Source: a bacterium
Lineage (GTDB): Bacteria; Pseudomonadota; Alphaproteobacteria; Rhizobiales; JAKIUO01
NCBI GenBank assembly: GCA_024228495.1
Contig: JAAETJ010000898.1
Coordinates: 1 to 32,987, forward strand
DNA length: 32,987 bases
Reading direction: 5' to 3'
Positions 1,601 to 31,199 of this stretch are shown here, piece after piece. The translations under genes and the position numbers were made by a program. Every line of letters begins with the position of its first letter. Position 1 is the first letter of the stretch. The notes under the pieces were generated by a model. That model had not been told where the DNA came from. It ran no database searches and saw only the letters and a list, made by a program, of their open reading frames with translations.

Positions 1601-2104
1601 ATGCTTGAAATTGCCATCCTGACGATTTTCCCCCTGGCCATGTTGGTGTCTGCCAGCATGGATATTCTGACGATGACCATTCCAAACAAGATTACCCTGG
1701 CGCTGGTCGCGGGTTTCTTTTTGCTGGCGCCATTTATAGGGCTTGGCTGGATGGATCTGGCGATTCATGTCGGCATGGCCTTTGGTCTACTGCTGATTGG
1801 TATGTTCATGTTTGCCATGGGATGGATCGGGGGAGGGGACGCCAAACTGTTCGCGGCTACTGGTCTGTGGCTTGGCTATTCCACTCAGATGTTTGAATAT
1901 GCGCTTTACGCAAGTTTGATGGGCGGCGTGCTGACCCTGTTGATTTTGAAATTGCGGTCATTGCCAATGGTGCCCAGTTTTTTGAACTTCAAATGGATGC
2001 TTCGTTTGCATGATCCAAATGAGGGCGTGCCCTATGGTGTTGCCCTGGCTGGCTCGGCGTTGCTGATCTATCCTCATTCCATATGGATTACAGGGATTTT
2101 GTAA
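1601..2104 (+). CDS. cpaA: CpaA/TadV prepilin peptidase (A24 aspartic protease)
   Basis: The protein cleaves the leader from the Flp prepilin at the inner membrane. It has 167 residues, the normal size for the short TadV/CpaA branch, which lacks the N-terminal methylase domain of PilD, and about five hydrophobic segments. Both expected catalytic aspartates are visible: Asp21 in MDILTMTIPN and Asp80 in the GGGDAKL motif. The start ATG has GAGG ten bases upstream. It lies 84 bases after the PAP2_3 gene on the same strand and may be cotranscribed with it; a hairpin plus T-run about 90 bases downstream separates it from cpaB. Confidence 0.94.
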   Translation: MLEIAILTIFPLAMLVSASMDILTMTIPNKITLALVAGFFLLAPFIGLGWMDLAIHVGMAFGLLLIGMFMFAMGWIGGGDAKLFAATGLWLGYSTQMFEYALYASLMGGVLTLLILKLRSLPMVPSFLNFKWMLRLHDPNEGVPYGVALAGSALLIYPHSIWITGIL

Positions 2105-2193
2105 GAGAATCGGCGAATGAAACAGGCTGCTTTGCTTGTTGATTTTCATTGAACCATTTAAAAAATATAGAAATAAACGAATGAAACTATATT

Positions 2194-2219
2194 AAACTCG
2201 CAGTTTTGCGGGTTTTTTT
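2194..2219 (+). terminator. probable Rho-independent terminator between cpaA and cpaB
   Basis: AAACTCGC / GCGGGTTT (2194-2201 and 2208-2215, one G-T pair) encloses a six-base loop and runs into seven T residues. It implies that cpaB and the genes after it have their own promoter, or are reached by read-through. Confidence 0.7.
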
Positions 2220-2336
2220 GTGTCTGTTTCAAAATGGTTCAAAAATGACACGGCGGTTAATACTCCATTGACCATGTTGCGCGACACTGGGTTCAGGAAT
2301 TTAGTGAAACCGTTCGAGTCGAAGGACCATATTCAA

Positions 2337-3116
2337 ATGAATCGCGGAAGAATTATCGTAGTGGTGATGGCAGTGGCGTGCGCTGGATTAGCCATGCTGT
2401 TAATGAAAAATATGGTCAAGGGCCCACAAACCAGGATTGTGAAACAGGAAGTTTCAGAAATACAGGTCCTTGTTGCAAAAACTGATATTGGCCTTGGTGG
2501 TCGCCTTAGATCCAACGACATGAAATGGCAGCCTTGGCCGGGTTCAGCCGCCAAGGGATATATTACCAAAAAACGTAATCCCAAAGCGATCCAGGAATTC
2601 ACTGGATCTGTTGCACGAGTTTCAATTGGCCTTGGTGATCCGATCCGAGCAAAGAAACTCGTCAAAGCTGACGAGGGTGGCGTCATGGCAGCGATCTTGC
2701 CGTCCGGTGTACGAGCGATTTCTATTGAGGTTAGCAACGCCGCTGGCGTGAGTGGTCTTATTTTGCCAAATGACCGGGTCGACCTTATTTTGACGACCAA
2801 AACCGGTCGCGGTGGCGACAAGAAGTCAGCCAGTGAAACATTGTTGAACAATGTACGCGTGTTGGCAATCGGTACCACATTCGAAACAAGAAATGGGCAA
2901 AAGTCCATGAAAGCCAAAACAGCAACATTGGCGCTTACGCCAAATCAGGTGGAAATTGTCACGCAGGCCAGATCGCGCGGAAAAATCTGGCTTTCATTGC
3001 GCTCCTTGACAGATTCATCAGAACAACAAGGTCCCACAGTCAAACGTGCGGTCGGTTCTTCAAGTGTAAAAATGTTGAAATTTGGAGTTGCTTCTCAGGC
3101 ATTCGGCGTCGAATAG
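2337..3116 (+). CDS. cpaB: CpaB/RcpC, periplasmic Tad pilus assembly protein (SAF domain)
   Basis: CpaB is anchored in the inner membrane and acts in the periplasm, where it helps couple the secretin to the inner-membrane platform. The protein starts with a short cytoplasmic end and one membrane segment (MNRGRIIVVVMAVACAG...), then has the SAF-like region (VLVAKTDIGLGGRLRSNDMKW, about residues 44-65) and the RcpC region (about 110-220, with LPNDRVDLILT and the NVRVLAIG strand). At 259 residues it fits the family. I chose ATG 2337 because AAGGA lies ten bases upstream and family members begin just before the membrane segment. The longer frame from GTG 2220 starts directly in the T-run of the upstream terminator and has no ribosome site. 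Confidence 0.92.
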   Translation: MNRGRIIVVVMAVACAGLAMLLMKNMVKGPQTRIVKQEVSEIQVLVAKTDIGLGGRLRSNDMKWQPWPGSAAKGYITKKRNPKAIQEFTGSVARVSIGLGDPIRAKKLVKADEGGVMAAILPSGVRAISIEVSNAAGVSGLILPNDRVDLILTTKTGRGGDKKSASETLLNNVRVLAIGTTFETRNGQKSMKAKTATLALTPNQVEIVTQARSRGKIWLSLRSLTDSSEQQGPTVKRAVGSSSVKMLKFGVASQAFGVE

Positions 3117-3186
3117 GCTGCTCGCAATCACAGAGCAAGCTGACGCCTAAATTGTTGGTAAGTACATATTATTTAAGAAGGTTAGT

Positions 3187-4677
3187 GTGATGATGATGAT
3201 GATGATGATCAAGAACAAGCTGGCGACCCCCATATCGCTGATTGCTGCAGGACTTCTTGCAATGTCTGTTTTTGTGATGCCAGGTGGCGTGCAGGTACAA
3301 GCGGCTGAACAAGGACCCGGCAAGAACGCCTCGATCCTCAATATTTCGTCTGCGGATGCAAAAAAAGGCGCTAAATATATCAAGATCGGTCTTGGCAAAT
3401 CCATTGTGCTAGAGCTTCCGCGTCCCGTGCGAGATGTGCTGGTATCCAATCCAAAATTGATGGATGCCGTCGTTCATACTTCTAACCGTGTCTATTTGAT
3501 TGGCCTCAAGGTCGGCCAGGCCAACGCGTTCTTCTTTGATCGTGATGGCAAGCAGATCCTGACGCTTGAAGTCAGTGTCGAGCAGGATATGGAGCCGGTC
3601 AAACAGCTGTTGAGCCGTCTGATCCCAGGTAGCAATATCAACCTGGAAAGTATCAATGACAATGTCATTATGACGGGCTCTGTTCGCACCCCCGCGCAAT
3701 CAAATCGCGCCTCTGATATTGTTGGCCGCTTTATCGCCAAGGGCGGTAAGGAAAAAGAAGGCGCCTTGCGCGTCGTCAACATGTTGGCAGTTGAAGCACG
3801 TGAGCAGGTGATGCTCAAAGTGCAAGTCGTTGAGATGAACCGTCAGATCATCAAGCAGCTGGGTGTAAATCTTGGTGCTGTGGCCACGTCGGGCAATCTG
3901 ACTTATAGCCTGCTATCGAGCACGCCGTTTTCAGCACTTGGTAAAGAGGTCATCGATGGTGTATCGGGGATGTCAAACGGCACGAGCCTTGTTGGTGGAA
4001 CAAGCAAATTTTCTGTCACTGCCATGCTGAAGGCGATGGAGCGTAACGGTATGACCCGGACGCTTGCGGAGCCAAATTTGACCGCAATTTCAGGGGAAAC
4101 AGCGAAATTCCACGCAGGTGGTGAATTTCCAATCCCTGTCGCAACGGAAGGCGATACCATTTCTGTGGAATGGAAGAAATTTGGTGTCTTGCTGAACTTC
4201 ACGCCAGTTGTTTTGTCAGAAGGCCGGATCTCCCTGCAGATCAAATCTGAAGTTAGTGAGCTGTCTACAGAGGGTGCCATTGAGGTCGCCGGGATCACAT
4301 TGCCTGCCATAGCCACACGCAACGCTGAATCAACCGTTGAGCTGCCAAGTGGTGGAGGCTTGATGATGGCGGGTCTTATCTCGTCAAAAACACGACAGGC
4401 CGTCAATGGTTTGCCAGGCCTCAAAAACCTGCCAGTGCTGGGAACACTTTTCAGAAGTCGTGACTTTGTCAAACAGGAAACTGAGCTGACGATTATTGTC
4501 ACCCCTTATATTGTCAAGCCGGTTTCAGCTCGCAAATTGACATCCAGTGATGTGGGGTATGCTCCGGCCAGCGATGCCAAAGCAAATCTGTTAGGCCATT
4601 TCAACCGCATTTACGGGCGCCGTGGACGAATGCCACGAGGTCGCCAGCACGGTGACTATGGTTTCATCGTCGAGTAA
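3187..4677 (+). CDS. cpaC: CpaC/RcpA, outer-membrane secretin of the Tad pilus
   Basis: CpaC forms the outer-membrane channel through which the Flp pilus passes. The 496-residue protein has a signal peptide (hydrophobic core about residues 13-30, cleavage near VQAA-EQ), a pilus-assembly N-terminal domain (about 55-130, with SKSIVLELPRPVRDVLVSNP-type sequence), a BON-like segment (about 135-200) and the C-terminal type II/III secretin domain (about 255-445), including VEWKKFGVLLNFTPVV and the end motif LTIIVTPYIVKPV. The N-terminus is odd: GTG followed by six ATG codons, so seven in-frame start codons stand in a row behind AAGAAGG (3175-3181); the GTG and the first two ATGs have the best spacing. 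It precedes cpaD by 27 bases and belongs to the cpaC-F/tadB operon. Confidence 0.95.
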   Translation: MMMMMMMIKNKLATPISLIAAGLLAMSVFVMPGGVQVQAAEQGPGKNASILNISSADAKKGAKYIKIGLGKSIVLELPRPVRDVLVSNPKLMDAVVHTSNRVYLIGLKVGQANAFFFDRDGKQILTLEVSVEQDMEPVKQLLSRLIPGSNINLESINDNVIMTGSVRTPAQSNRASDIVGRFIAKGGKEKEGALRVVNMLAVEAREQVMLKVQVVEMNRQIIKQLGVNLGAVATSGNLTYSLLSSTPFSALGKEVIDGVSGMSNGTSLVGGTSKFSVTAMLKAMERNGMTRTLAEPNLTAISGETAKFHAGGEFPIPVATEGDTISVEWKKFGVLLNFTPVVLSEGRISLQIKSEVSELSTEGAIEVAGITLPAIATRNAESTVELPSGGGLMMAGLISSKTRQAVNGLPGLKNLPVLGTLFRSRDFVKQETELTIIVTPYIVKPVSARKLTSSDVGYAPASDAKANLLGHFNRIYGRRGRMPRGRQHGDYGFIVE

Positions 4678-4704
4678 TTACGGGAATTTCAAGGAGTATT
4701 TTCA

Positions 4705-5460
4705 ATGACTATTGTACAGCCCTCAATGCTTTTGAGCAAGAGAAGTTTTATGAACAAAAAATCTATGATGATCAAGATTACTGTCGGATGTATTTTGGCA
4801 GCCGGTCTGGCAGGGTGTGAAGCTCATAGCGACCAGCCGGTCAAAGTGGGAAAAATGCTGATCACTAATCCAAGAGGAAATCATCCGATCAGGGTTTCCA
4901 AGCAGATGATCAAGATGCACATTCCTGTTCGTCGTGGGGACTATGGTCTTAATGCCGAAAAGAAAATGGAACTGGGCAATTTTGTCGACCAGTACCGCCG
5001 TGAAGGGGAGGGACGTTTGATATTATCCGCCCCTGCAGGGCAGCCAAACGAAGTGGCAGCTTTCAACGTCTTGAACGATGTGAGGGACAGCATGAAATCT
5101 CATGGTATTGTGCGCCAGATGGTGAAGCTTTCTCCTTACTCACCCAAGGGCGATCCAGAAGCGCCAATCGTTGTTTCTTATCTTGGCTACAAGGCAGAGG
5201 GTCCCAAATGTGGCCCTTTGACAAGAGACATTGGTGGCGAAAGACGCAATCTTTCTTATGAGCAACATTCATGTGCGACGCAAGCCAATATTGCGGCCAT
5301 GGTTGCCAATCCCAAGGATCTGGTTGAGGCTCGCGACGAGTCACCTCGTTCTGGCGAGCGCCGGGATCAGCTCTGGGATAAATATGTCAAAGGTGACAGC
5401 ACCGAGACGAAGAAATCCAGTGATCAGAAGAAAACTCTAAGCAGTTCGGTAGGAAACTAA
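4705..5460 (+). CDS. cpaD: CpaD, Tad pilus-associated outer-membrane lipoprotein
   Basis: CpaD is a lipoprotein partner of the CpaC secretin. The 251-residue protein has a lipobox LAGC with the lipidation Cys at residue 38 and the CpaD-family body, including a conserved segment rich in VxYLGYxAEGPxCGP and a C-terminal CATQANIAAMVANPKDLVEAR motif typical of rhizobial CpaD. ATG 4705 has AAGGAG eight bases upstream and is the better translation start, although it leaves a long n-region; ATG 4750 (MNKKSMMIK...) would give a textbook lipoprotein signal but a weaker ribosome site. The stop codon is one base before the cpaE start. Confidence 0.92.
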   Translation: MTIVQPSMLLSKRSFMNKKSMMIKITVGCILAAGLAGCEAHSDQPVKVGKMLITNPRGNHPIRVSKQMIKMHIPVRRGDYGLNAEKKMELGNFVDQYRREGEGRLILSAPAGQPNEVAAFNVLNDVRDSMKSHGIVRQMVKLSPYSPKGDPEAPIVVSYLGYKAEGPKCGPLTRDIGGERRNLSYEQHSCATQANIAAMVANPKDLVEARDESPRSGERRDQLWDKYVKGDSTETKKSSDQKKTLSSSVGN

Positions 5461-5461
5461 T

Positions 5462-6751
5462 ATGAGCAGTGTCGAATATACCGAAGCTGGAAACGAGATC
5501 GTGTCCGAGAATAACCAGCGAAAATCATCGCAGGTTTCAATGGACCGAACCCGGGTGGTGCCTCGCATCACCATCCAAGCTTTTTGCGAAAATGAAGAGA
5601 CGGCTGAAGCGATTTCTAATGCTTCAGCTGATCGACGGCTCGCAAAATCACATGTGACGGTACAGATGGGGGGAGCGCGAGCTGCCAACAGCTTTTATCA
5701 AAGTGCACCGACACCCAATCTGATTATCATCGAAAGCCAGGCTGAACGCGACGCCATGTTGAGCGATCTCGATAAGCTGGCTGAATCATGCGACGCTGGC
5801 ACCAAGGTGTTGGTCATTGGCATGGTCAATGATGTGGTGCTGTATCGCTCGCTGATGCAGCGCGGGGTCAGTGAATATATGGTGGCACCGCTCGAGCCTT
5901 ATCAGGTGATCGAGGCGATTGCCAATCTGTATGCTGATCCAGATGCCGAACCCGTTGGTGAAGTTGTTGCCTTTGTTGGGGCAAAGGGGGGCTCTGGTTC
6001 CTCAACGATCTGTCACAATACTGCCTGGGCAATGTCAAAAATTACCCATGCGGATGTTGTGATCTCTGATTTTGATCTGGCATTTGGCACCGCTGGTCTG
6101 GACTTTGATCAAGACCCTGTGCAGGGGATTGCTGACGCTTTGTCGGCACCTGAGCGTCTTGATGAAGTGCTGCTTGATCGCCTGCTCACAAAATGTTCTG
6201 AAAATCTTAGCCTGTTCGCAGCGCCAAGCACGCTTGATCATGTCTATGATCTTTCAGAAAAGCAGTGTTCGACGGTGATCGATGTCATGCGTTCTAACCT
6301 GCCATATGCCTTTGTGGATATTCCTCACATGTGGACAGGTTGGTCGCGTCAAATGCTGGTTCATGCTGATGATATTATCATCACGGCGACCCCTGATCTT
6401 GCCTCCTTGCGCAATACAAAAAACCTGATTGATCTAATTGGCAAGGAACGCACAAATGATGATCCCCCACACGTTGTTCTAAATCAGGTCAACATTCCAA
6501 AAAAGCCAGAGATTTCGGTTGCAGATTTTAATAAATCTCTCGATAGGGATGTTGATTACATCATTGATTTTAATCCGCAACTTTTTGGTACAGCAGCAAA
6601 CAATGGTCAAATGATCCTGGAGTTTGAGCCCAAAGCCAAAGCTTCGGAACAATTTAATGATCTTGCTTCAAAGATTGCAGGTATATCCGATCAAAATGTT
6701 GAAACGGGCTCAGCTTTTGCAAAACTTCTTGGGAAGTTAAACCGCAAATAA
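5462..6751 (+). CDS. cpaE: CpaE/TadZ, ParA/MinD-like pilus localisation ATPase
   Basis: CpaE is a cytoplasmic ParA/MinD-type ATPase that places the Tad machine in the cell, typically at a pole. The 429-residue protein has an N-terminal receiver-like domain (about residues 35-155, ending in SEYMVAPLEPYQVIEAI) that appears atypical for phosphorylation, then the ATPase domain with a deviant Walker A GAKGGSGSST (residues 173-182, signature Lys175) and a switch region DFDLAFGTAGLDFDQ. Its start lies one base beyond the cpaD stop, behind AGGAAAC, indicating translational coupling. cpaF follows after 14 bases. Confidence 0.94.
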   Translation: MSSVEYTEAGNEIVSENNQRKSSQVSMDRTRVVPRITIQAFCENEETAEAISNASADRRLAKSHVTVQMGGARAANSFYQSAPTPNLIIIESQAERDAMLSDLDKLAESCDAGTKVLVIGMVNDVVLYRSLMQRGVSEYMVAPLEPYQVIEAIANLYADPDAEPVGEVVAFVGAKGGSGSSTICHNTAWAMSKITHADVVISDFDLAFGTAGLDFDQDPVQGIADALSAPERLDEVLLDRLLTKCSENLSLFAAPSTLDHVYDLSEKQCSTVIDVMRSNLPYAFVDIPHMWTGWSRQMLVHADDIIITATPDLASLRNTKNLIDLIGKERTNDDPPHVVLNQVNIPKKPEISVADFNKSLDRDVDYIIDFNPQLFGTAANNGQMILEFEPKAKASEQFNDLASKIAGISDQNVETGSAFAKLLGKLNRK

Positions 6752-6765
6752 CAGGATGAGAATAG

Positions 6766-8268
6766 ATGTTTGGGAAACGAAGTGATACCGATAGTTCAGC
6801 AAATGGACGGGCCATTGCCCCTGTTCAATCAAATACCAGTTCTCCAACAGTCGATGGACTGGTTCCTGATCTGGTTGCCGAGGCAGCAGTCCCGGCAAGA
6901 ACTGAACCGGTAGCGAAACCGGACGAAACTGCCGTCGAAGAAAATCTACGTACGTCCGAATATTATTCGGTTAAGACTACTGTCTTTAACGCCCTTATCG
7001 ACACCATCGACCTAGCGCAGCTGTCGCAGGTCGATAAAAGCGTTGCCCGTGACGAGATTAGAGATATCGTCACCGAGATCTTGTCGATCAAGAACGTCAT
7101 CATGTCCATTTCGGAGCAGGAAGAGCTACTAGAAGATATCTGCAATGATGTGCTTGGATATGGCCCCCTGGAACCGCTTCTGGCTCGTGATGATATCGCC
7201 GATGTTATGATTAACGGTGCCCACACCTCTTATATTGAGGTTGATGGCAAGATGTTGAAGGCGGGTGTCCAGTTTGCTGACAATGCCCAATTGATGAATA
7301 TCTGCCAAAGGATTGTTAGTCAGGTTGGCCGTCGTGTCGATGAATCAAGCCCCATTTGCGACGCGCGTTTGCCAGATGGCTCACGTGTTAACGTCATCGC
7401 GCCACCCCTTGCGATTGATGGGCCTTGCCTGACTATTCGTAAGTTTAAGAAGGACAAGCTGACCCTGGCGCAGCTCGAAAGCTTTGGCTCGATTACGCCT
7501 GAAGGCAGAACGATCTTGGAAATTATTGGCCGTGTTCGCTGCAATGTTGTTATTTCAGGTGGTACGGGTTCTGGTAAAACAACCTTGCTGAACTGCATGA
7601 CCGCTTCCATCGATCTTGATGAGCGTATCATTACTTGCGAAGATAGTGCCGAGCTGCAATTGCAGCAGCCTCATACGGTGCGCCTTGAAACACGTCCCCC
7701 CAACCTTGAAGGGGAAGGGGAGATCACCATGCGTGATCTCGTCAAGAACTGTCTGCGTATGCGCCCGGAAAGAATAATCGTTGGTGAGGTTCGTGGGTCC
7801 GAAGCCTTTGACCTATTGCAGGCCATGAACACCGGGCATGATGGCTCGATGGGAACGCTGCATGCCAACTCCCCGCGTGAAGCGATATCGCGTCTTGAAA
7901 GCATGATCATGATGGGTGGATTTTCGCTGCCTTCACGGACCATCAGGGAAATGATTGTTGGCTCTGTTGATGTCATCGTACAAGCCTCTCGCATGCGCGA
8001 TGGTTCGCGTAAGATCACTCATATTACAGAAGTGATCGGCATGGAGGGTGATGTGCCAACCTTGCAGGATCTGTTCGTCTACGAGATGAATGGAGAAGAT
8101 AAAGACGGTATGATTATCGGTCAGCATCGTTCAACTGGTATCGCACGGCCAAAATTCTGGGAACGTGCTCAATACTTTAACGAACAACACCGATTGGCAA
8201 AAGCACTGGCCGATGCCGAGACGGGTACAGGATTTAGGAACAATAACGAGGAGGCGAGTTTTGTTTAG
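6766..8268 (+). CDS. cpaF: CpaF/TadA, pilus assembly ATPase (VirB11/GspE superfamily)
   Basis: CpaF is the hexameric cytoplasmic ATPase that powers Flp pilus extension and retraction. The 500-residue protein has a variable N-terminus (1-80), the N-terminal domain of secretion ATPases (about 95-240, with [16 protein letters not shown]), Walker A GGTGSGKT at 265-272, an Asp box around [11 protein letters not shown], Walker B-like [13 protein letters not shown] and the His box [14 protein letters not shown]. It shares its last eight bases with the start region of tadB, so the two products are probably translated in a coupled way. Confidence 0.96.
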
Positions 8269-9250
8269 CCCTGAGATGATACAATTTGCCATCATTATAC
8301 TTGGCGCACTGGCGGTTGGCGGCTTTGTCTATGCTATTGCAATGCCCTATTTTAATGGTGAGAAAAAAGCCGTTCAGCGCGTTGCCAATCTGGTGTCCGA
8401 GAAAATGGATCGTTCTCGGTATTCGCCGGAACAAAAACGCCGCAAGGTTGTGCAAGATGTTCTTGAAGAACTGGACACTCGCCAGAAAGAAAATGCCAAG
8501 GTGTCGATGCGCCAGCGGCTTTCTCAGGCCGGCTTGTCTATCAGCCCGTTCGTCTTTTATCTGATTAGCGCTGTGAATGCCGTTATATTGGGCGCGATCA
8601 CTTATATGTTTGTAGGTGAGAGCATCGCCCCTTTTGCGGCAGGCGCCGCAAGTTTTACTGGCGGCATTGGTTTGCCACGCTGGGTTATCAAATTTCTATC
8701 CGCACGTCGGCAACGTAAATTCGTGGATCAACTCGCCAACGCCATCGATATTATTGTACGCGGTGTGAAAACCGGTTTACCACTCAACGATTGTATCGGC
8801 ATCATTGCTGCAGAATCTCCAGCGCCGCTCGGTCAGGAATTTGCCAAGATTGTTGAGGAGCAGCGTATTGGCGTCACCCTGGCGCAGGGCATCGAGCGTA
8901 TGTATGAGCGCGTGCCTTTGCAAGAGGTCAGCTTTTTGTCGATCGTCATCTCCATTCAGTCTGCCGCCGGTGGTAACCTGGCGGAAGCTTTGCAGAACTT
9001 GTCCAATGTTTTGCGTGAGCGTAAAAAACTGGAAGGTAAAGTGCGTGCTTTTTCTCAAGAAGCCAAATCATCGGCAGCTATTATTGGTTCACTGCCCGTC
9101 CTGGTCATGGGGGCCGTTTATATGTCGAAACCCGATTACATCATGATCCTTTTTGATGAACGATCAGGCAATATGATGCTGGCGGGTAGTGCAGTCTGGA
9201 TGCTTATGGGTGTTCTCATGATGCGCAAAATGATAAATTTCGACTATTAG
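8261..9250 (+). CDS. tadB: TadB, inner-membrane platform protein of the Tad pilus
   Basis: TadB is one of two GspF-like platform proteins that pair with CpaF. It has an N-terminal membrane helix, a central pair of helices (about residues 95-140), the T2SSF domain (about 165-295, with FVDQLANAIDIIVRGVKTGLPL and the conserved SAAGGNLAEALQNLSNVLRER) and a C-terminal pair of helices. I chose TTG 8261 as start: GAGGAGG (8248-8254) stands six bases before it, it overlaps the cpaF stop, and it gives 329 residues, the family length. The next ATG (8276) would be 21 bases from that ribosome site, and the longer reading frame from 8165 lies inside cpaF. Confidence 0.92.
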   Translation: MFSPEMIQFAIIILGALAVGGFVYAIAMPYFNGEKKAVQRVANLVSEKMDRSRYSPEQKRRKVVQDVLEELDTRQKENAKVSMRQRLSQAGLSISPFVFYLISAVNAVILGAITYMFVGESIAPFAAGAASFTGGIGLPRWVIKFLSARRQRKFVDQLANAIDIIVRGVKTGLPLNDCIGIIAAESPAPLGQEFAKIVEEQRIGVTLAQGIERMYERVPLQEVSFLSIVISIQSAAGGNLAEALQNLSNVLRERKKLEGKVRAFSQEAKSSAAIIGSLPVLVMGAVYMSKPDYIMILFDERSGNMMLAGSAVWMLMGVLMMRKMINFDY

Positions 9251-9359
9251 TCATTGTACAAACGTGCGTTTTGCGCGTCGCATGATGCGGCGGAACGATT
9301 TATTTATTCGGGACTTTTAGTGAGGCTCGATCACATTTTAAAACACAGGTCAGGTGATC

Positions 9360-10331
9360 ATGTACAATTTTATTGATCAGTTTTTTACAGTCGAGATCGC
9401 AATCATAGCGCTTATCGGCCTCGCCACATTTGGCACGATCATAACCGTTGTGGGTCCATTGCTGGCTGGCAGTAAACTGAATGCCCGGATGAAATCGGTG
9501 TCTACCGAGCGCGATGTACTGCGCAAAGCCCGTTTGGACGAACTCAATGCGAGCAATGTCAATTTGCGGCATGGAATCCAGGGTCCCGTCAAGGTGATTG
9601 TTGAAAAACTTCATCTCGACAAGGCGCTTGATCCCGAAAAAACCCGCAATAAATTGAAAACTGCCGGGTTGCGTGGCCCCGGGCCCCTCATGATGTTCAT
9701 GTTCTTCCAGATTGTCATGCCCGTTGTGGTGGGTATTGGAGCAATGCTCTACCTGACTTACGTCAATGATCATGGCCATGAGCCTGCGATGAGGATTGGT
9801 CTTAGTATTGGTGCGGCACTGGCTGGTTATTATCTGCCGACTCTGTTTGTTCATAATATCGTGCAAAAACGCAAGGATTCTATCAGGAAAGCGTGGCCAG
9901 ACGCCCTCGATCTACTGCTGATTTGTGTGCAGTCCGGCATGTCAATTGAAGCTGCGTTCAAACTGGTATCCAGCGAGATTGGCACGCAGTCTGTTCCGCT
10001 CGCCGAAGAGCTGACCTTGACCACTGCCGAGATGTCTTATCTGCAGGAGCGGCGTCAGGCCTATGAGAACCTGGGTATTCGCACCGGAATTGAGGGCGTT
10101 AAATCAGTGACTACCTCTTTGATGCAGGCCGAACGTTATGGTACACCGCTGTCACAAGCGCTAAGGGTGCTGGCACAAGAAAATCGCGATATGCGCATGG
10201 CGGAAGCCGAACGAAAAGCGGCCGCCTTGCCTCCCAAACTGACGGTGCCGATGATTACATTTTTCTTGCCGGTTCTGTTCGTTGTGATTTTGGGACCAGC
10301 CATTATTCAGGCTCTTGCGACCCTTAAATAG
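9360..10331 (+). CDS. tadC: TadC, inner-membrane platform protein of the Tad pilus
   Basis: This is the second GspF-like platform protein, paralogous to TadB. The 323-residue protein has an N-terminal helix, a paired helix segment (about residues 112-165) and the T2SSF domain (about 180-310, with AWPDALDLLLICVQSGMSIEAAF and the ERYGTPLSQALRVLAQENRDMR motif), ending in a hydrophobic helix. ATG 9360 has AGGTCAGG a few bases upstream; the frame also contains GTG 9354 two codons earlier. A 109-base gap separates it from tadB, so it may have its own promoter. A strong terminator follows, closing the pilus operon. Confidence 0.94.
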   Translation: MYNFIDQFFTVEIAIIALIGLATFGTIITVVGPLLAGSKLNARMKSVSTERDVLRKARLDELNASNVNLRHGIQGPVKVIVEKLHLDKALDPEKTRNKLKTAGLRGPGPLMMFMFFQIVMPVVVGIGAMLYLTYVNDHGHEPAMRIGLSIGAALAGYYLPTLFVHNIVQKRKDSIRKAWPDALDLLLICVQSGMSIEAAFKLVSSEIGTQSVPLAEELTLTTAEMSYLQERRQAYENLGIRTGIEGVKSVTTSLMQAERYGTPLSQALRVLAQENRDMRMAEAERKAAALPPKLTVPMITFFLPVLFVVILGPAIIQALATLK

Positions 10332-24483: not shown

Positions 24484-25068
24484 ATGTTTTACAAGTTGAT
24501 GGGATTGGCCACTGCCGCAGGATTGGCTTTGAGCCTTGGCACCATACCCGCGAATGCCCAAAAAGCGGCTGAAAATATGGCCAAGCCTTTGGAGCGTGAG
24601 TGTAAAGCCAAGGAAGTCTCGCGCACTGGCGGTCGCTCCAGATTCCAGATCACAGCGCGCAAAAAAGCTCGCGATGCGTGGCGTCAGAAAATTCGCGAAA
24701 GAGAAGGCAAGCAATGGGCTTCGTGGCTGTTTTCCAAAGATGCAAAGTATAATTGCTTTAAGGAGAAAGGGCGCAATCGTTGTACTGTGATAGCCACGCC
24801 GTGCAAACTAACGGCTGTATTAAGTGGGCCGGGCAAGGTTTGCTCTTTCTACAAGATCGCTGGCACGGGCAACCCCTCCAAGCTGAAAGAATGGGCCAAG
24901 CATAAAGCCCGCAAGGTCTGGGCCGCAAGAGTGCGCGATTTTTATGGTACGAAAATGGATACATGGTTGCTGTCCAACAGTAAGGACACCAAATGCACGG
25001 ATCATGCAAATGGTACGCATACCTGCACAGTGACATCACAACCATGCCGGTTCCGTGTCTTGAACTAG
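24484..25068 (+). CDS. secreted protein with two Cys-rich tandem repeats, unknown function
   Basis: The 194-residue product has a signal peptide (hydrophobic core about 6-20, likely cleavage after ANA-Q, residue 25). The mature part is an internal duplication: Cys at 40, 91, 100, 107 and again at 120, 171, 181, 188, giving spacings 51-9-7 and 51-10-7. Each unit of about 80 residues carries a KARxxW...W helical segment (Trp66/Trp81 and Trp146/Trp161) followed by a CxnCTVxxxPC end. The pattern is seen in small alphaproteobacterial exported proteins of unknown role; the paired Cys suggest two disulfides per repeat in the periplasm. The mature protein is Lys/Arg-rich. GAGGGA stands ten bases before ATG 24484. 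It follows the IS5 relic and ends in a strong terminator; dsbB lies 640 bases away. Confidence 0.75.
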   Translation: MFYKLMGLATAAGLALSLGTIPANAQKAAENMAKPLERECKAKEVSRTGGRSRFQITARKKARDAWRQKIREREGKQWASWLFSKDAKYNCFKEKGRNRCTVIATPCKLTAVLSGPGKVCSFYKIAGTGNPSKLKEWAKHKARKVWAARVRDFYGTKMDTWLLSNSKDTKCTDHANGTHTCTVTSQPCRFRVLN

Positions 25069-27163: not shown

Positions 27164-27250
27164 GCCCCTGTGGCGGAACTGGTAGACGCGACAGATTCAA
27201 AATCTGTTTCTCGCAAGGGAGTGCCCGTTCGAGTCGGGCCAGGGGCACCA
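27164..27250 (+). tRNA. tRNA-Leu (anticodon CAA)
   Basis: The 87-base gene folds as a class II tRNA: acceptor GCCCCTG / CAGGGGC, anticodon stem ACAGA / TCTGT around loop TTCAAAA (anticodon CAA, reads UUG), a long variable arm, T-arm with GTTCGAGTC, and an encoded 3' CCA. It is a potential integration site, but no second copy of its 3' end is seen in this window. Confidence 0.95.
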
Positions 27251-27554
27251 ATAAAACAGGGGTTAGTCAATTATGCTGGCCCCTTACTGGCCTCCAAGTA
27301 ACCGCTAGGCACCACATAGGAACTTGGATTTTTGTAGCATTCTTGCTTCACATCGTCTTGTTTTTGCTATTACAGCACTGTCAACGCTAGCAAACGTTCT
27401 AATCCTTCCATTTGTTTCTAGCAGGTAATCAAATTCGCACCAACGCCCCATAAGAACAGATTTGCAGACCGCAAACGGCCTTGCTGCAAGCGATGGGTGA
27501 TATCCATACTCGTTTTCCGAATACAGGACTAGAGGTTCCCCAAAGGAAAAATTC
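27251..27554. other. non-coding stretch between tRNA-Leu and the IS982 fragment
   Basis: I find no supported gene or RNA here. The open frames overlapping it either run through the tRNA or lack a ribosome site. It may hold decayed DNA belonging to the IS982 relic. Confidence 0.4.
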
Positions 27555-27851
27555 CAAAAATTTTGGAAAAAAGGACTTCATGTTTTTCCAGGTATTCGCA
27601 AAAACATGAAGTATTATCTACTGCCACTTTGCAATAAGCCACTGATACGCAAGCTATTTCTTGTGGGAGCCGTCTTTGGGGTGCTCAAGAGCGATATGGG
27701 GCTGGAGCATTCACGCCATCGCTCATCGACAAATGCACTCGTCCATATCATCTCATGCCTCGTCGCCCATTGCCTGAAAAACAACAAGCCTGAAATGACG
27801 TTGATGACAAAGCAAAAGCTGGAGGCTTATCAATTAGGGGTTATTTATTGA
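27555..27851 (+). pseudogene. IS982-family transposase C-terminal fragment
   Basis: The frame reads QKFWKKGLHVFPGIRKNMKYYLLPL...KPLIRKLFLVGAVFGVLKSDMGLEHSRHRSSTNALVHIISCLVAHCLKNNKPEM and ends at TAA near 27851. The IRKNMK, FxVLKSxMGLEHSRHRS and NALVHIxSCLVA motifs are those of the C-terminal third of IS982-type transposases. The upstream catalytic part is absent or unrecognisable, and an ATG at 27606 lies inside the motif, so it is a relic, not a small gene. I could not identify terminal repeats. Confidence 0.72.
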
Positions 27852-27866
27852 CACCGAAGCCAACGC

Positions 27867-28724
27867 CTATTTCCGTTCACATGTATTGACCAGGTTTGAT
27901 AACAGTCCTAAGCGGGCCCTTTTGAACTGCTTCAGCAAATTAATCCCTGGCTTACTGGCGTGCAGACATTCATTGCGTATTGCCGCTTTGCTTGTTGGTA
28001 CGCTCAGTCGGTTTTTGCAAACTCGCAACGCTTCACGTGTGGTTGCATATGCTTCACGCGTATAACTCGCGCAGATGTCAGCGACTGCACCCGAGGGCTT
28101 TTGCGTTGAGCCCTGATTTGATTGTCGCGATCCAGATTTAGATCTTCCTGGTTTTGATCTTAGCGCCTTTTTCTTTCTGACGATACAGGTATTGCCGCGC
28201 TGGCGTGCCAATTTCGTGCGTTGCTCGGCTCGTCTTTTGGAGGACGCATAGCAATATTTATAATGCGCTTGCCGTGTTTGGGTACCCGCTATCTGGCAAC
28301 CACGATCGGCGTAATATTTTTCTACTGCAACCTGATCATAAGCCCAGTTGTTGCACCAGAGTCCATGATTTTTGCTGCGTGTACCCTGGTTTGGTTTTTT
28401 GTTGGATCCTTTTTGTTTTGGATTTGGTACAATTTTGATTTTGCCCGGGACCACTTTAATCTTGCACTCTTCAATCTTGCGCTTTCGGTAGTTGTAATGA
28501 GCTGACCGTACTTTGGGAGTGTTGAAGGCGCACCATACCTTATGACTGGCCTTGTTGTAGTGCCATCGGTCACCCTTATATCCGCATTTTAATGAGTAAT
28601 TGTGTTCAGCTTGTTTGACCGCTTCGCGAGCATAGTCCTCGCAATTCAGGGTGTATGCTGTCTGACTATTCAGCAGCAATATAATAAAAACACTCAAAAA
28701 TATGGACTTCTTTGTAAAGAACAT
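27867..28724 (-). CDS. secreted Cys-rich protein with three degenerate repeats, unknown function
   Basis: The 285-residue product has a signal peptide (hydrophobic core about residues 8-22, cleavage near TAYT-LN). The mature protein contains twelve Cys in three groups of four. In numbering that begins at the upstream ATG 28739 they are 33/52/70/92, 129/148/163/185 and 223/241/258/287. The first unit reads CEDYAREAVKQAEHN...CGYKGDRWHYNKASHKVWC; the later ones keep the CxxYA/CxxWA start and Cys spacing but little else. Two Lys/Ser/Pro-rich linkers (about 95-122 and 187-215) separate them. I chose ATG 28724 because GGAGA lies eight bases upstream. No enzyme motif is seen; a structural or binding role in the periplasm is inference. 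Confidence 0.72.
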   Translation of the reverse strand: MFFTKKSIFLSVFIILLLNSQTAYTLNCEDYAREAVKQAEHNYSLKCGYKGDRWHYNKASHKVWCAFNTPKVRSAHYNYRKRKIEECKIKVVPGKIKIVPNPKQKGSNKKPNQGTRSKNHGLWCNNWAYDQVAVEKYYADRGCQIAGTQTRQAHYKYCYASSKRRAEQRTKLARQRGNTCIVRKKKALRSKPGRSKSGSRQSNQGSTQKPSGAVADICASYTREAYATTREALRVCKNRLSVPTSKAAIRNECLHASKPGINLLKQFKRARLGLLSNLVNTCERK

Positions 28725-28908
28725 TACCGTGTTCTCCATTTTGAAATTGTTTTTTGATCACATGCAGGTTTGGTTAATGAGCAAATGCGATCTCTGGAAG
28801 TTGTTTCCCTAGCTCATTTCATGCGCCGCGTGATGCTAGAATCGATTATAAAGTACTCCGTTCAGAAAGTGAAGATATTCCCGTAAAATCTGTATGCAGG
28901 CAGGAAAG

Positions 28909-29031
28909 ATGATTGCCCTTTTCGAAACATTCGCAAACAAAACTTTGATGGATGTCAAAGAAACAGATATGAGGGTTCTCTTACAAATGGTTGGAGTTCC
29001 AAGCGAGTGCGAAATCGATTATTGGCGCTGA
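28909..29031 (+). CDS. possible 40-aa small protein
   Basis: ATG 28909 follows AGGCAGGAAAG and opens a 40-codon frame ending at TGA 29031 (MIALFETFANKTLMDVKETD...CEIDYWR). It has no recognised family and overlaps the 3' end of the facing gene by 13 bases. It could be the end of a decayed gene or chance. Confidence 0.25.
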   Translation: MIALFETFANKTLMDVKETDMRVLLQMVGVPSECEIDYWR

Positions 29032-29699
29032 TATCTGAAGAGTTTTCCTTCGAGGTCTTTTACCAGCGTGTCCCGGTATTTTAAAACCAGGACATCGCGT
29101 CCCTCACGCTGTAAGCGGACACCGTCAAACGTTTTCTTTCCTAGATCTCCCGGATCGAACTCAAATACGTAAGCTTTGCCGTCACCAGATGATTTTGGAA
29201 GCTTCAAGGGCTGATAACCCAGCCCCACCATTGCAACACCAAGTTCAATCTTCTGCAGCGAATTCGTGCAACTTGTCGCAAAGCCATAATATTGCGTATA
29301 ACCTTCACTTGTTTTGGTTCCGCAGTTCGCGCGCACGTCTATGCCTGCAATACCGCCGCCAACCTTATTTACGACGATGATTTCATAGGTATCCCCTTTA
29401 GCAGCGCGGCGTTCTTTAAAACGAAACTGCGGTTTCTGGGCATAAGCCTTACTTTTCAGAATAATTTCCGCCCCCCCGGCGCGCCATTCTCCCTCTGATT
29501 CCTCATCATAAGCGCCGTAAGCGAGGAAATATTTAAAACGTCCGTCCCCGATCAGCTGAATACAAGAGCCGACTTCTCGCACTCCAGTTAAACAGTAGGA
29601 GCCGACATTTTTATCAAGGACCTGGGCCGCTAATGTCGAGAAAAGGAGTAGCCCCGCCGAAAGAGTTGCCAGGAGAAATTTCGGGATTGTGGAAAACAT
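29019..29699 (-). CDS. hypothetical exported protein, 226 aa
   Basis: I do not recognise a named family. The protein has an N-terminal signal sequence (hydrophobic core about residues 7-22, possible cleavage after LAA-Q) and a likely beta-rich body that begins GSYCLTGVREVGSCIQLIGDGRFKYFLAYGAYDEESEGEWRAGGAEIIL, a pattern like small lipocalin-type or META-like hypothetical proteins in which a Gly-x-Trp strand closes a barrel (inference). Four Cys are present in the mature part. ATG 29699 is taken as start; GTG 29714 is five codons earlier. The ribosome site is weak. It stands alone on the - strand. Confidence 0.65.
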   Translation of the reverse strand: MFSTIPKFLLATLSAGLLLFSTLAAQVLDKNVGSYCLTGVREVGSCIQLIGDGRFKYFLAYGAYDEESEGEWRAGGAEIILKSKAYAQKPQFRFKERRAAKGDTYEIIVVNKVGGGIAGIDVRANCGTKTSEGYTQYYGFATSCTNSLQKIELGVAMVGLGYQPLKLPKSSGDGKAYVFEFDPGDLGKKTFDGVRLQREGRDVLVLKYRDTLVKDLEGKLFRYQRQ

Positions 29700-29714
29700 T
29701 GATCGCTCGTGCAC

Positions 29715-30203
29715 AAACAGAATAGAACCGAATAATTGTCAGGTCCCCTTATAACTGTTATTGTGAAAAAAGTAGAGTAGTATTGAATGCAGCGCCGAAA
29801 CCAATCCCAGAAGTAAACTGCTTTTTATCAAGCCAAGTATGGAACTATTCCTGGGTATCAAGTGCCAAATTCACAGCAGCGCCTGTGACCAATCAGAAGT
29901 GTGCGCCGCACCTGAAACGGACGTTTGAATGTCTGTTATCGAGGGTAGGGCGGACTGTACGATGAAATCGTAATGCTCAAACATCAATGTCAGATCAAGT
30001 CGGAACTAATACACTTGAGGATTGATGCGGTGCGATCACATACCTAAATGATTTATGCGATCAAAGGTGATTTGATGGTGTAACCGTGGCCATGCTGTGA
30101 TACGTTTCGAGCGTTACCGGGAGCGAACTCCAAATTGGGCAATCGGGTCCTGAAATTTATCGATAGGGTTTGAATTTTCCATTGCCGGTGACATCATTGG
30201 AAT
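29715..30203. other. about 490 bases without a supported gene
   Basis: I see no convincing coding frame, RNA or terminator. TGCGATCA occurs at 30031-30038 and 30056-30063 (25-base period) and is the only clear repeat; the region should contain the promoter of the carboxypeptidase gene. Confidence 0.45.
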
Positions 30204-31199
30204 TTGAAAGTCGGATTGTCCATTTTGAAGTATATAATCAGTTTTTTGAGTATGGTTGCCGTTTTGGTGACTTTTATATTTGGCCAGGCAAATGCTGGCC
30301 CGACGCTGTTGATGGATGCACAAAGCGGCAAGATCTTTTATGCGGAAGATCAGGATTTGCCCTGGCATCCCGCTTCCACGACAAAATTAATGACGGCCTA
30401 TTTGGTTTTTGACGCTATCAAGAACGGCAAAATGAAGCTCACAGATGCGGTTTTGCAATCCGAGCGCTCCATTTTGGAGCCGCCTAGCAAGATCGGTTAT
30501 CCCGTAGGTATCGGCATGTCTGTAGAACTTGCCCTGCAATCCCTGATTATCAAATCGGCCAATGATGTGGCAGTGATGTTGGCGGAAAAAATCGGTGGCT
30601 CGGTTGAGGGCTTTTCGGCTCGCATGAACGCCAAGGCTAAATCACTTGGCATGAACAACACCAATTTTGTCAATCCAAATGGCTTACACCACATCAAACA
30701 TGTTTCGACAGCGCGTGATCTGGCGCTCTTGACCCAGGCTCTATGGAAAGATTTCCCTGAACATCGCGCCCGTTTTTCTAGAGCTTCAATGAAGATCGGC
30801 AGGCGCAAGCTGCGTTCTTATAATTCTCTATTGCGTACCTTTGAAGGTACGGACGGAATGAAGACGGGCTTTGTCTGCGCGTCAGGCTTTAACATTGTCG
30901 CGAGTGCCACCAGAGATGGTCGCCGTCTCATCGCGGTTGTGTTGGGGGCAAAAAATCCAGGGCAGCGGGCCGAGCGGACCAAGGCATTACTGAGTTATGG
31001 TTTTGAGCATTTCGACTGGAAGATGTTGCTTGGCGGTGAAAAGAAAGAGCTGTTTCTAGCTGGCTTTCCCATGGGCGATAATCATAAGGCGGAACCCGCT
31101 AATATGCGCCCCGTCGCCTGTCGTCCCCGTCGCCGTGTTGTCCGGAGCAAAGCCAGGAAGCGCAAAAAAAAAAGGCGCCGACGCAAACGCGGTGGGTAA
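30204..31199 (+). CDS. D-alanyl-D-alanine carboxypeptidase (S11 penicillin-binding protein)
   Basis: This enzyme trims the terminal D-Ala of peptidoglycan stem peptides in the periplasm. In the 331-residue frame, a signal peptide (core about 13-28, cleavage near ANA-GP) is followed by the three active-site motifs: STTK (Ser58, Lys61), SAN (118-120) and KTG (220-222). The penicillin-binding C-terminal domain is absent or short. Instead the protein ends in a strongly basic tail (about residues 305-331, mostly Arg/Lys), part of it encoded by a run of ten A residues (31164-31173). The start is uncertain: TTG 30204, TTG 30216 and ATG 30252 are possible and none has a clear ribosome site. Confidence 0.9.
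   Translation: MKVGLSILKYIISFLSMVAVLVTFIFGQANAGPTLLMDAQSGKIFYAEDQDLPWHPASTTKLMTAYLVFDAIKNGKMKLTDAVLQSERSILEPPSKIGYPVGIGMSVELALQSLIIKSANDVAVMLAEKIGGSVEGFSARMNAKAKSLGMNNTNFVNPNGLHHIKHVSTARDLALLTQALWKDFPEHRARFSRASMKIGRRKLRSYNSLLRTFEGTDGMKTGFVCASGFNIVASATRDGRRLIAVVLGAKNPGQRAERTKALLSYGFEHFDWKMLLGGEKKELFLAGFPMGDNHKAEPANMRPVACRPRRRVVRSKARKRKKKRRRRKRGG

Follow-up and report, generated by a model that had tools for sequence, protein, structure and literature searches.

A diverged accessory member of an unnamed four-cysteine module family in a Rhizobiales genome

The minus strand of a 32,987-nucleotide stretch of DNA from a member of the Rhizobiales (the window) encodes a protein, P0001, with three sets of four cysteines, which raises the question of whether these sets are true repeats, to which family they belong and which function such a protein could serve. 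The open reading frame (27867-28739) would yield 290 residues if the ATG at 28739 were used. The ATG at 28724, corresponding to Met6, appears to be the better start because a GGAG ends 9 nt upstream of it, and the gene was placed at 27867..28724 (285 residues). When the translation is read by eye, residues 6-30 (28650..28724) resemble a signal peptide, in agreement with an earlier note on this DNA, which had taken the protein to be exported. The cysteines occupy positions 33, 52, 70 and 92 in unit 1 (residues 31-94; 28458..28649), 129, 148, 163 and 185 in unit 2 (residues 127-187; 28179..28361), and 223, 241, 258 and 287 in unit 3 (residues 221-290; 27870..28079), all on the minus strand. Their spacings, 19-18-22, 19-15-22 and 18-17-29, are exactly those reported before, and unit 2 is distinguished by a short distance between the second and third cysteine (C2-C3). 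The CxxYA or CxxWA start previously ascribed to all units does not hold for unit 3, which begins with C-x-x-Y-T. The two intervening linkers are rich in Lys, Arg, Pro and Ser and were rightly described as basic, with a net charge of +8 for linker 1 (residues 95-126; 28362..28457, minus strand) and of +9 over residues 189-220 of linker 2 (residues 188-220; 28080..28178, minus strand). The mature protein has a pI of 10.2, with 58 Lys/Arg against 16 Asp/Glu residues. Searches with P0001 returned no Pfam or NCBIfam family at E ≤ 10, and thus neither PAN/Apple (PF14295, PF00024) nor H-type lectin, WSC or Tectonin domains; the only row in a PDB sequence search had an E of 0.9, PHROGs gave nothing below E 0.087, and no match was found in the phage or genome_contigs searches.

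Unit 1 nevertheless belongs to a recognizable family. It is a canonical copy of a mobile extracytoplasmic module of about 64 residues with the pattern C..YA..A..Q...C...G..W......H..WC....R...L..C (gaps abridged), for which no name was found in the Pfam copy used (models to 2025), NCBIfam 20.0, PHROGs 4 or PDB sequences, and no description in the titles and opening parts of abstracts of open-licence literature. Conservation was assessed on 96 of 126 units, kept at less than 72% identity and found by a model that was trained on such units and so favours its own columns. The four cysteines are conserved in 96, 94 (of 95 letters), 96 and 96 of these 96 units, which bears out the expectation that their positions would be kept among homologues. 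Further conserved positions are W29 (89 of 92 letters), R55 (81/96), H36 (80/96) and Leu or Ile at position 59 (89/96). Among 164 distinct matched stretches, 131 contain all four cysteines; 31 of the remaining 33 are, judged by eye, cut off at the end of the locus or open reading frame, one (L043) shows a shift by one residue, and one (L046) is without C2. The latter is the only complete unit without one of its cysteines, and it shows no second loss that would reveal the disulfide pairing. The joint conservation of H36 and the four cysteines could also reflect binding of a metal or cofactor instead of disulfide formation. Disulfides are the better fit to exported proteins in which nearly all complete units have an even set of four cysteines, and PAN domains, the most frequent companions of the module, are themselves disulfide domains, so that a metal or cofactor site appears very improbable.

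The module is concentrated in a single order, as shown by 53 positives among 297 genomes drawn from the order, in contrast to 4 of 385 in a draw from the class and 3 of 398 in a draw from the phylum. These numbers were obtained at a threshold of E ≤ 1e-4 with a profile (A2) whose 11 diverse units stem from the own genome and three class-level genomes. Within the order, 48 of the positive genomes lie outside the genus of P0001, and 32 of 122 genera are represented. The class-level matches comprise the own genome and three others, and the same four are found by a profile (A1) that contains no units from these three; the phylum-level matches are the own genome and two of the same order. Searches of plasmids with one of the large relatives from the own genome (C326, see below) and with a three-unit relative gave no match. 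The module is unnamed in the searched Pfam and NCBIfam releases, yet 53 of the 297 order genomes sampled have it, with up to eight copies per protein, and naming it would provide a label for many secreted proteins currently called hypothetical. Small, exported, cysteine-braced repeat modules that are shuffled among surface proteins are a well-known kind. The recognition of the family, and the location of P0001 on a segment missing from sister genomes (see below), go beyond the earlier note, whose interpretation of the protein as a whole is partly supported, its two disulfides per domain and its divergence of the later units for a different partner being putative.

Whether all three units of P0001 are members of this family was evaluated with a profile of 173 units from other proteins, from which P0001 and its closest paralogue (C16) were left out, and with shuffled sequences in which the cysteines were kept fixed. 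Unit 1 scores 64.8 bits, unit 2 13.4 bits and unit 3 3.0 bits, in line with the previous statement that only the first unit keeps the pattern well. Because the scores of units 1 and 2 are reached by only 0 and 2 of 2000 shuffles, respectively, both are real members of the family. For unit 3, 118 of the 1997 shuffles that received a score did as well as the native sequence. A second model, built exclusively from the nine C326 units, gave a similar ranking, with 50.0 bits for unit 1 (0/1000 shuffles), 12.8 for unit 2 (1/1000) and 2.5 for unit 3 (67/996). The C16 paralogue has a likewise weak third unit (24/2000 shuffles), and its unit 3 matches unit 2 of P0001 with an E of 3e-8. As both share the shortened C2-C3 spacing, a divergent subtype of the module exists. 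For P0001 unit 3, the sequence by itself does not establish membership, which would have to be argued from its cysteine register and its predicted structure. P0001 could accordingly consist of two family units and an unrelated helical cysteine domain, a view compatible with any of the functional readings below. It is favoured by the low scores of unit 3 in both models and by the finding that the unit 2-3 half of the protein has no relatives in the order beyond C16. The weak third unit of C16 speaks against it, as do the equal helix count and the similar placement of cysteines relative to helices in the model of unit 3, for which the input alignment had already set the cysteines in register. 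An unrelated third domain is therefore regarded as rather unlikely.

The module is predicted to be a three-helix domain. An AlphaFold2 model of unit 1, based on 78 aligned units (alignment A3, which leaves out units 2 and 3 of both P0001 and C16, among others), has a mean pLDDT of 96.2 and a pTM of 0.82, with helices at 4-20, 34-42 and 46-66. The model of the mature protein was based on an alignment of 14 three-unit proteins (A4; model residue n corresponds to P0001 residue n+29) and reached a pLDDT of 81.4 and a pTM of 0.41. It contains three helix triplets, 4-20/34-42/46-67, 94-115/127-136/139-165 and 189-212/222-232/237-260, separated by stretches with pLDDT below 50 at 68-88, within linker 1, and 174-184, in the low-scoring linker 2. 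The prediction thus agrees with the proposal of three similar helical domains, and no difference in fold between them was seen. In each triplet, helix 1 has C1 in its first turns, and C2 follows at or just past its end; C3 is close to where helix 2 ends, and C4 falls in the later portion of helix 3. Since alignment A4 had already placed the cysteines of unit 3 in register, its in-register helices are support for, not proof of, a common fold, and the low pTM means that the model assigns no fixed relative position to the three domains.

Foldseek found nothing at E ≤ 0.001 for the unit in the PDB or BFVD, a missing match that does not show a new fold, and the only Foldseek row bearing on a saposin-like fold was 4ddj at E 5.4. 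With VIA-align, the best alignments were to the designed three-helix minibinders 7uhb_K (Z 4.3) and 9cwp_K (Z 4.5, the maximum). The unit shares the general three-helix arrangement with these and other helical bundles in the PDB, but the low Z and an identity of 8-10% give no sign of kinship, and the alignment may reflect only the common arrangement of helices. Designed three-helix minibinders run up-down-up; if the unit did the same, the cysteines might pair as C1-C3 and C2-C4, a suggestion made by analogy.

The architecture of module-bearing proteins was determined in a census of 78 proteins from 69 loci in 52 genomes (49 of the 53 matching genomes of the order and three from the class). It leaves out G414, G449, G589, G640 and some further matches in other genomes, and its counts are not independent, because 13 of the 78 proteins come from the genus of P0001 and other entries are close relatives of each other. 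One unit is present in 37 proteins and two to eight in 41; the census model misses unit 3 of P0001, which was therefore counted as a two-unit protein. Among the 75 open reading frames closed at both ends, 71 show a hydrophobic run of ten residues before the first unit in a crude test for export, and three of the other four appear by eye to have a signal as well. A PAN_4 domain accompanies the module in 30 of the 78 proteins, while WSC, Tectonin, H_lectin, FG-GAP, Peptidase_C14 and TPR were each found in one member at E ≤ 0.001, the H_lectin match with a score of 23.7 just under the gathering score of 24. By a pattern devised for this analysis, PAN-like sequences occur in 29 of the 41 multi-unit proteins versus 2 of the 37 single-unit proteins. 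The module resembles PAN/Apple proteins (PF14295 PAN_4, PF00024 PAN_1) as a small, exported, cysteine-rich recognition module, but none of the PAN models matches it, and its predicted structure contains helices only. The Peptidase_C14 protein (L096 3099-4499, minus strand) carries its caspase domain together with one four-cysteine unit at the C-terminus. Three proteins from different genera (L102, L103 and L108) share, as judged by eye, a C-terminal region rich in Cys and Trp that resembles W..S..GKCPL..CDC...C..Y.PG......P.GC.

In the own genome, a tblastn search with P0001 detected the C16 paralogue, a 325-residue three-unit protein (L010 5586-6563), and two large proteins on C326. The C16 paralogue is similar to P0001 in having three units, long linkers and no PAN domain, and in combining a canonical first unit with divergent later ones. 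The two first units match each other with an E of 3.6e-12, and the proteins are 27% identical over residues 10-201, but unit 3 of P0001 is without a counterpart. The searches did not detect the paralogue in the sister genomes, where all nine profile A1 matches per genome lie on the contig of the PAN-containing pair. This pair, which corresponds to the two C326 proteins, is present in all five genomes of the genus and consists of one protein with PAN and five units and one with PAN, three units, an H-lectin-like region and a further unit. Their units are true relatives of P0001 unit 1; in contrast to the pair, P0001 is devoid of PAN, its basic linkers are long, its units 2 and 3 have diverged, and it was detected in no genome but its own. 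P0001 is thus a PAN-less, diverged member of the family that is found only in this lineage. Whole-length orthologues were also sought with residues 100-290 in 294 genomes of the order, and the matches obtained in 40 of them at E ≤ 0.05 were treated as chance: 32 of the 39 rows other than the own copy and C16 run through stop codons, and none of nine re-read matches (L114-L122) contains a readable four-cysteine unit.

Within the genus, the PAN/H-lectin-like protein varies at its C-terminus, ending in a Tectonin domain in sister G004 (L051 2040-4886) and in a different, unnamed domain in its orthologues L009, L049 and L050, which represents a C-terminal domain swap. In sister G001 (L048 4902-7480), two overlapping frames of 610 and 305 residues take the place of the single large gene, a frameshift that could be an error in the sequence. 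L009 encodes, downstream of the PAN pair, a long simple repeat, (TRD)n, that precedes a folded-looking region (9313-9942, minus strand).

The partner domains and the charge of the module suggest a function at the cell surface. The average net charge of 180 family units is +6.1, with 92% of them positive. Among the partner domains, H-type lectins bind GalNAc-type sugars. Rhizobial PAN proteins were proposed as adhesins (PMC4653623), LPS is a ligand of a human tectonin protein (PMC2707011), and in fungi, WSC proteins act as sensors of the cell wall (PMC9024836). On the basis of the partners PAN_4, WSC, H_lectin and Tectonin and of the basic charge, the likeliest reading of P0001, although it falls somewhat short of an even chance, is a polycationic protein of the envelope with multivalent binding to an anionic glycan. 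P0001 would be exported, as its N-terminus suggests, and oxidized outside the cytoplasm, and would fold into three small three-helix domains, each probably with two disulfides. These domains would form three rigid knobs on flexible, strongly basic tethers; the protein would probably be retained in the envelope or matrix, where its basic faces and linkers would bind an anionic surface polymer (LPS, exopolysaccharide or capsule) in a multivalent manner. The association with glycans is weaker for P0001 itself, because it contains neither PAN nor a lectin domain and because single-unit proteins are PAN-like in only 2 of 37 cases. In addition, the caspase, TPR and FG-GAP partners give no hint of a glycan ligand, and basic proteins exported via Sec are common for other reasons.

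The main rival reading places the unit in the periplasm or at the cell surface as a spacer or as a module for protein-protein interaction, with P0001 as a scaffold or adaptor for a protein ligand. Short helical bundles commonly bind proteins, and caspase and TPR are among the partner domains. PAN domains bind proteins as well (PMC4653623). The WSC, H-type lectin and Tectonin companions, though single cases, favour sugars over a protein ligand, and the scaffold reading is considered possible, with a modest likelihood. Returning to glycan binding, a bolder and doubtful version would regard the unit as a new class of small, basic, lectin-like domains with three helices and two disulfides that bind an anionic glycan made by these alphaproteobacteria and were shuffled together with PAN, WSC, H-lectin and tectonin domains; P0001 would then be a lineage-specific variant on an accessory segment, in which units 2 and 3 have changed in specificity. 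The pairing with PAN and, in single cases, with lectin-type domains makes a role in surface recognition testable with one soluble domain of 65 residues.

The genomic setting identifies P0001 as an accessory gene. It is located on a segment (approximately 27271..30013, with edges that differ by sister) that is absent from four sister genomes. In all four, a tRNA-Leu gene is followed directly by a dacA-like gene, with DedA-like and DsbB genes on its other side. In the window, some 2.7 kb separate the tRNA-Leu (CAA) gene detected by ARAGORN (27164..27250, plus strand) from the dacA-like gene, named by eye (30204..31199, plus strand). The GC content of the segment is 0.455 versus 0.498 in the rest of the window and below that of all 245 overlapping stretches of equal size to its left. 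As in integrated tRNA islands, the extra DNA directly follows a tRNA gene and is absent from every sister; no repeat of the tRNA end was detected at the far edge of the segment (the longest shared word is 10 nt, on the reverse strand), nor an integrase among its open reading frames when these were inspected by eye. A gain of the segment in this genome is the simpler reading compared to a loss in the sisters. P0001 and a secreted-looking companion of 231 residues (29019..29714, minus strand) were, by reading, taken as its genes, and short open reading frames are also present, including one of 81 residues (27606-27851, plus strand). The companion matches no Pfam or NCBIfam family and has relatives in 3 of 199 genomes of the order, including the own one, and in none of the four sisters. 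One of these relatives, in G473, is 43% identical and another is partial, and weak partial matches were seen in seven plasmid records.

This setting also permits the view of P0001 as a secreted polycation that acts on other cells, as an antimicrobial or a competition factor, since it is very basic, secreted-looking, accessory and next to another rare gene for a secreted-looking protein. Against this, no immunity-like gene was seen, P0001 matches no toxin family in Pfam or NCBIfam, and the family consists mostly of stable multi-domain proteins that are kept in all five genomes of the genus. Such an action on other cells is thus improbable.

The DsbB gene near P0001 (25708-26262) was considered as a functional partner and rejected, because DsbB and the DedA-like gene are kept at this position in all four sisters without P0001, which marks the neighbourhood as ordinary. 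A secreted-looking protein of 194 residues (24484-25068, plus strand), without a match in Pfam or NCBIfam, consists of two similar cysteine-containing halves (KAR..W..., W..W/L..., C...C). Three of the four sisters carry relatives in their syntenic stretches; the stretch from the fourth ends short of this position. Elsewhere in the window, a run of genes (1601-10331, plus strand) reads by eye like a Tad/Flp pilus cluster.
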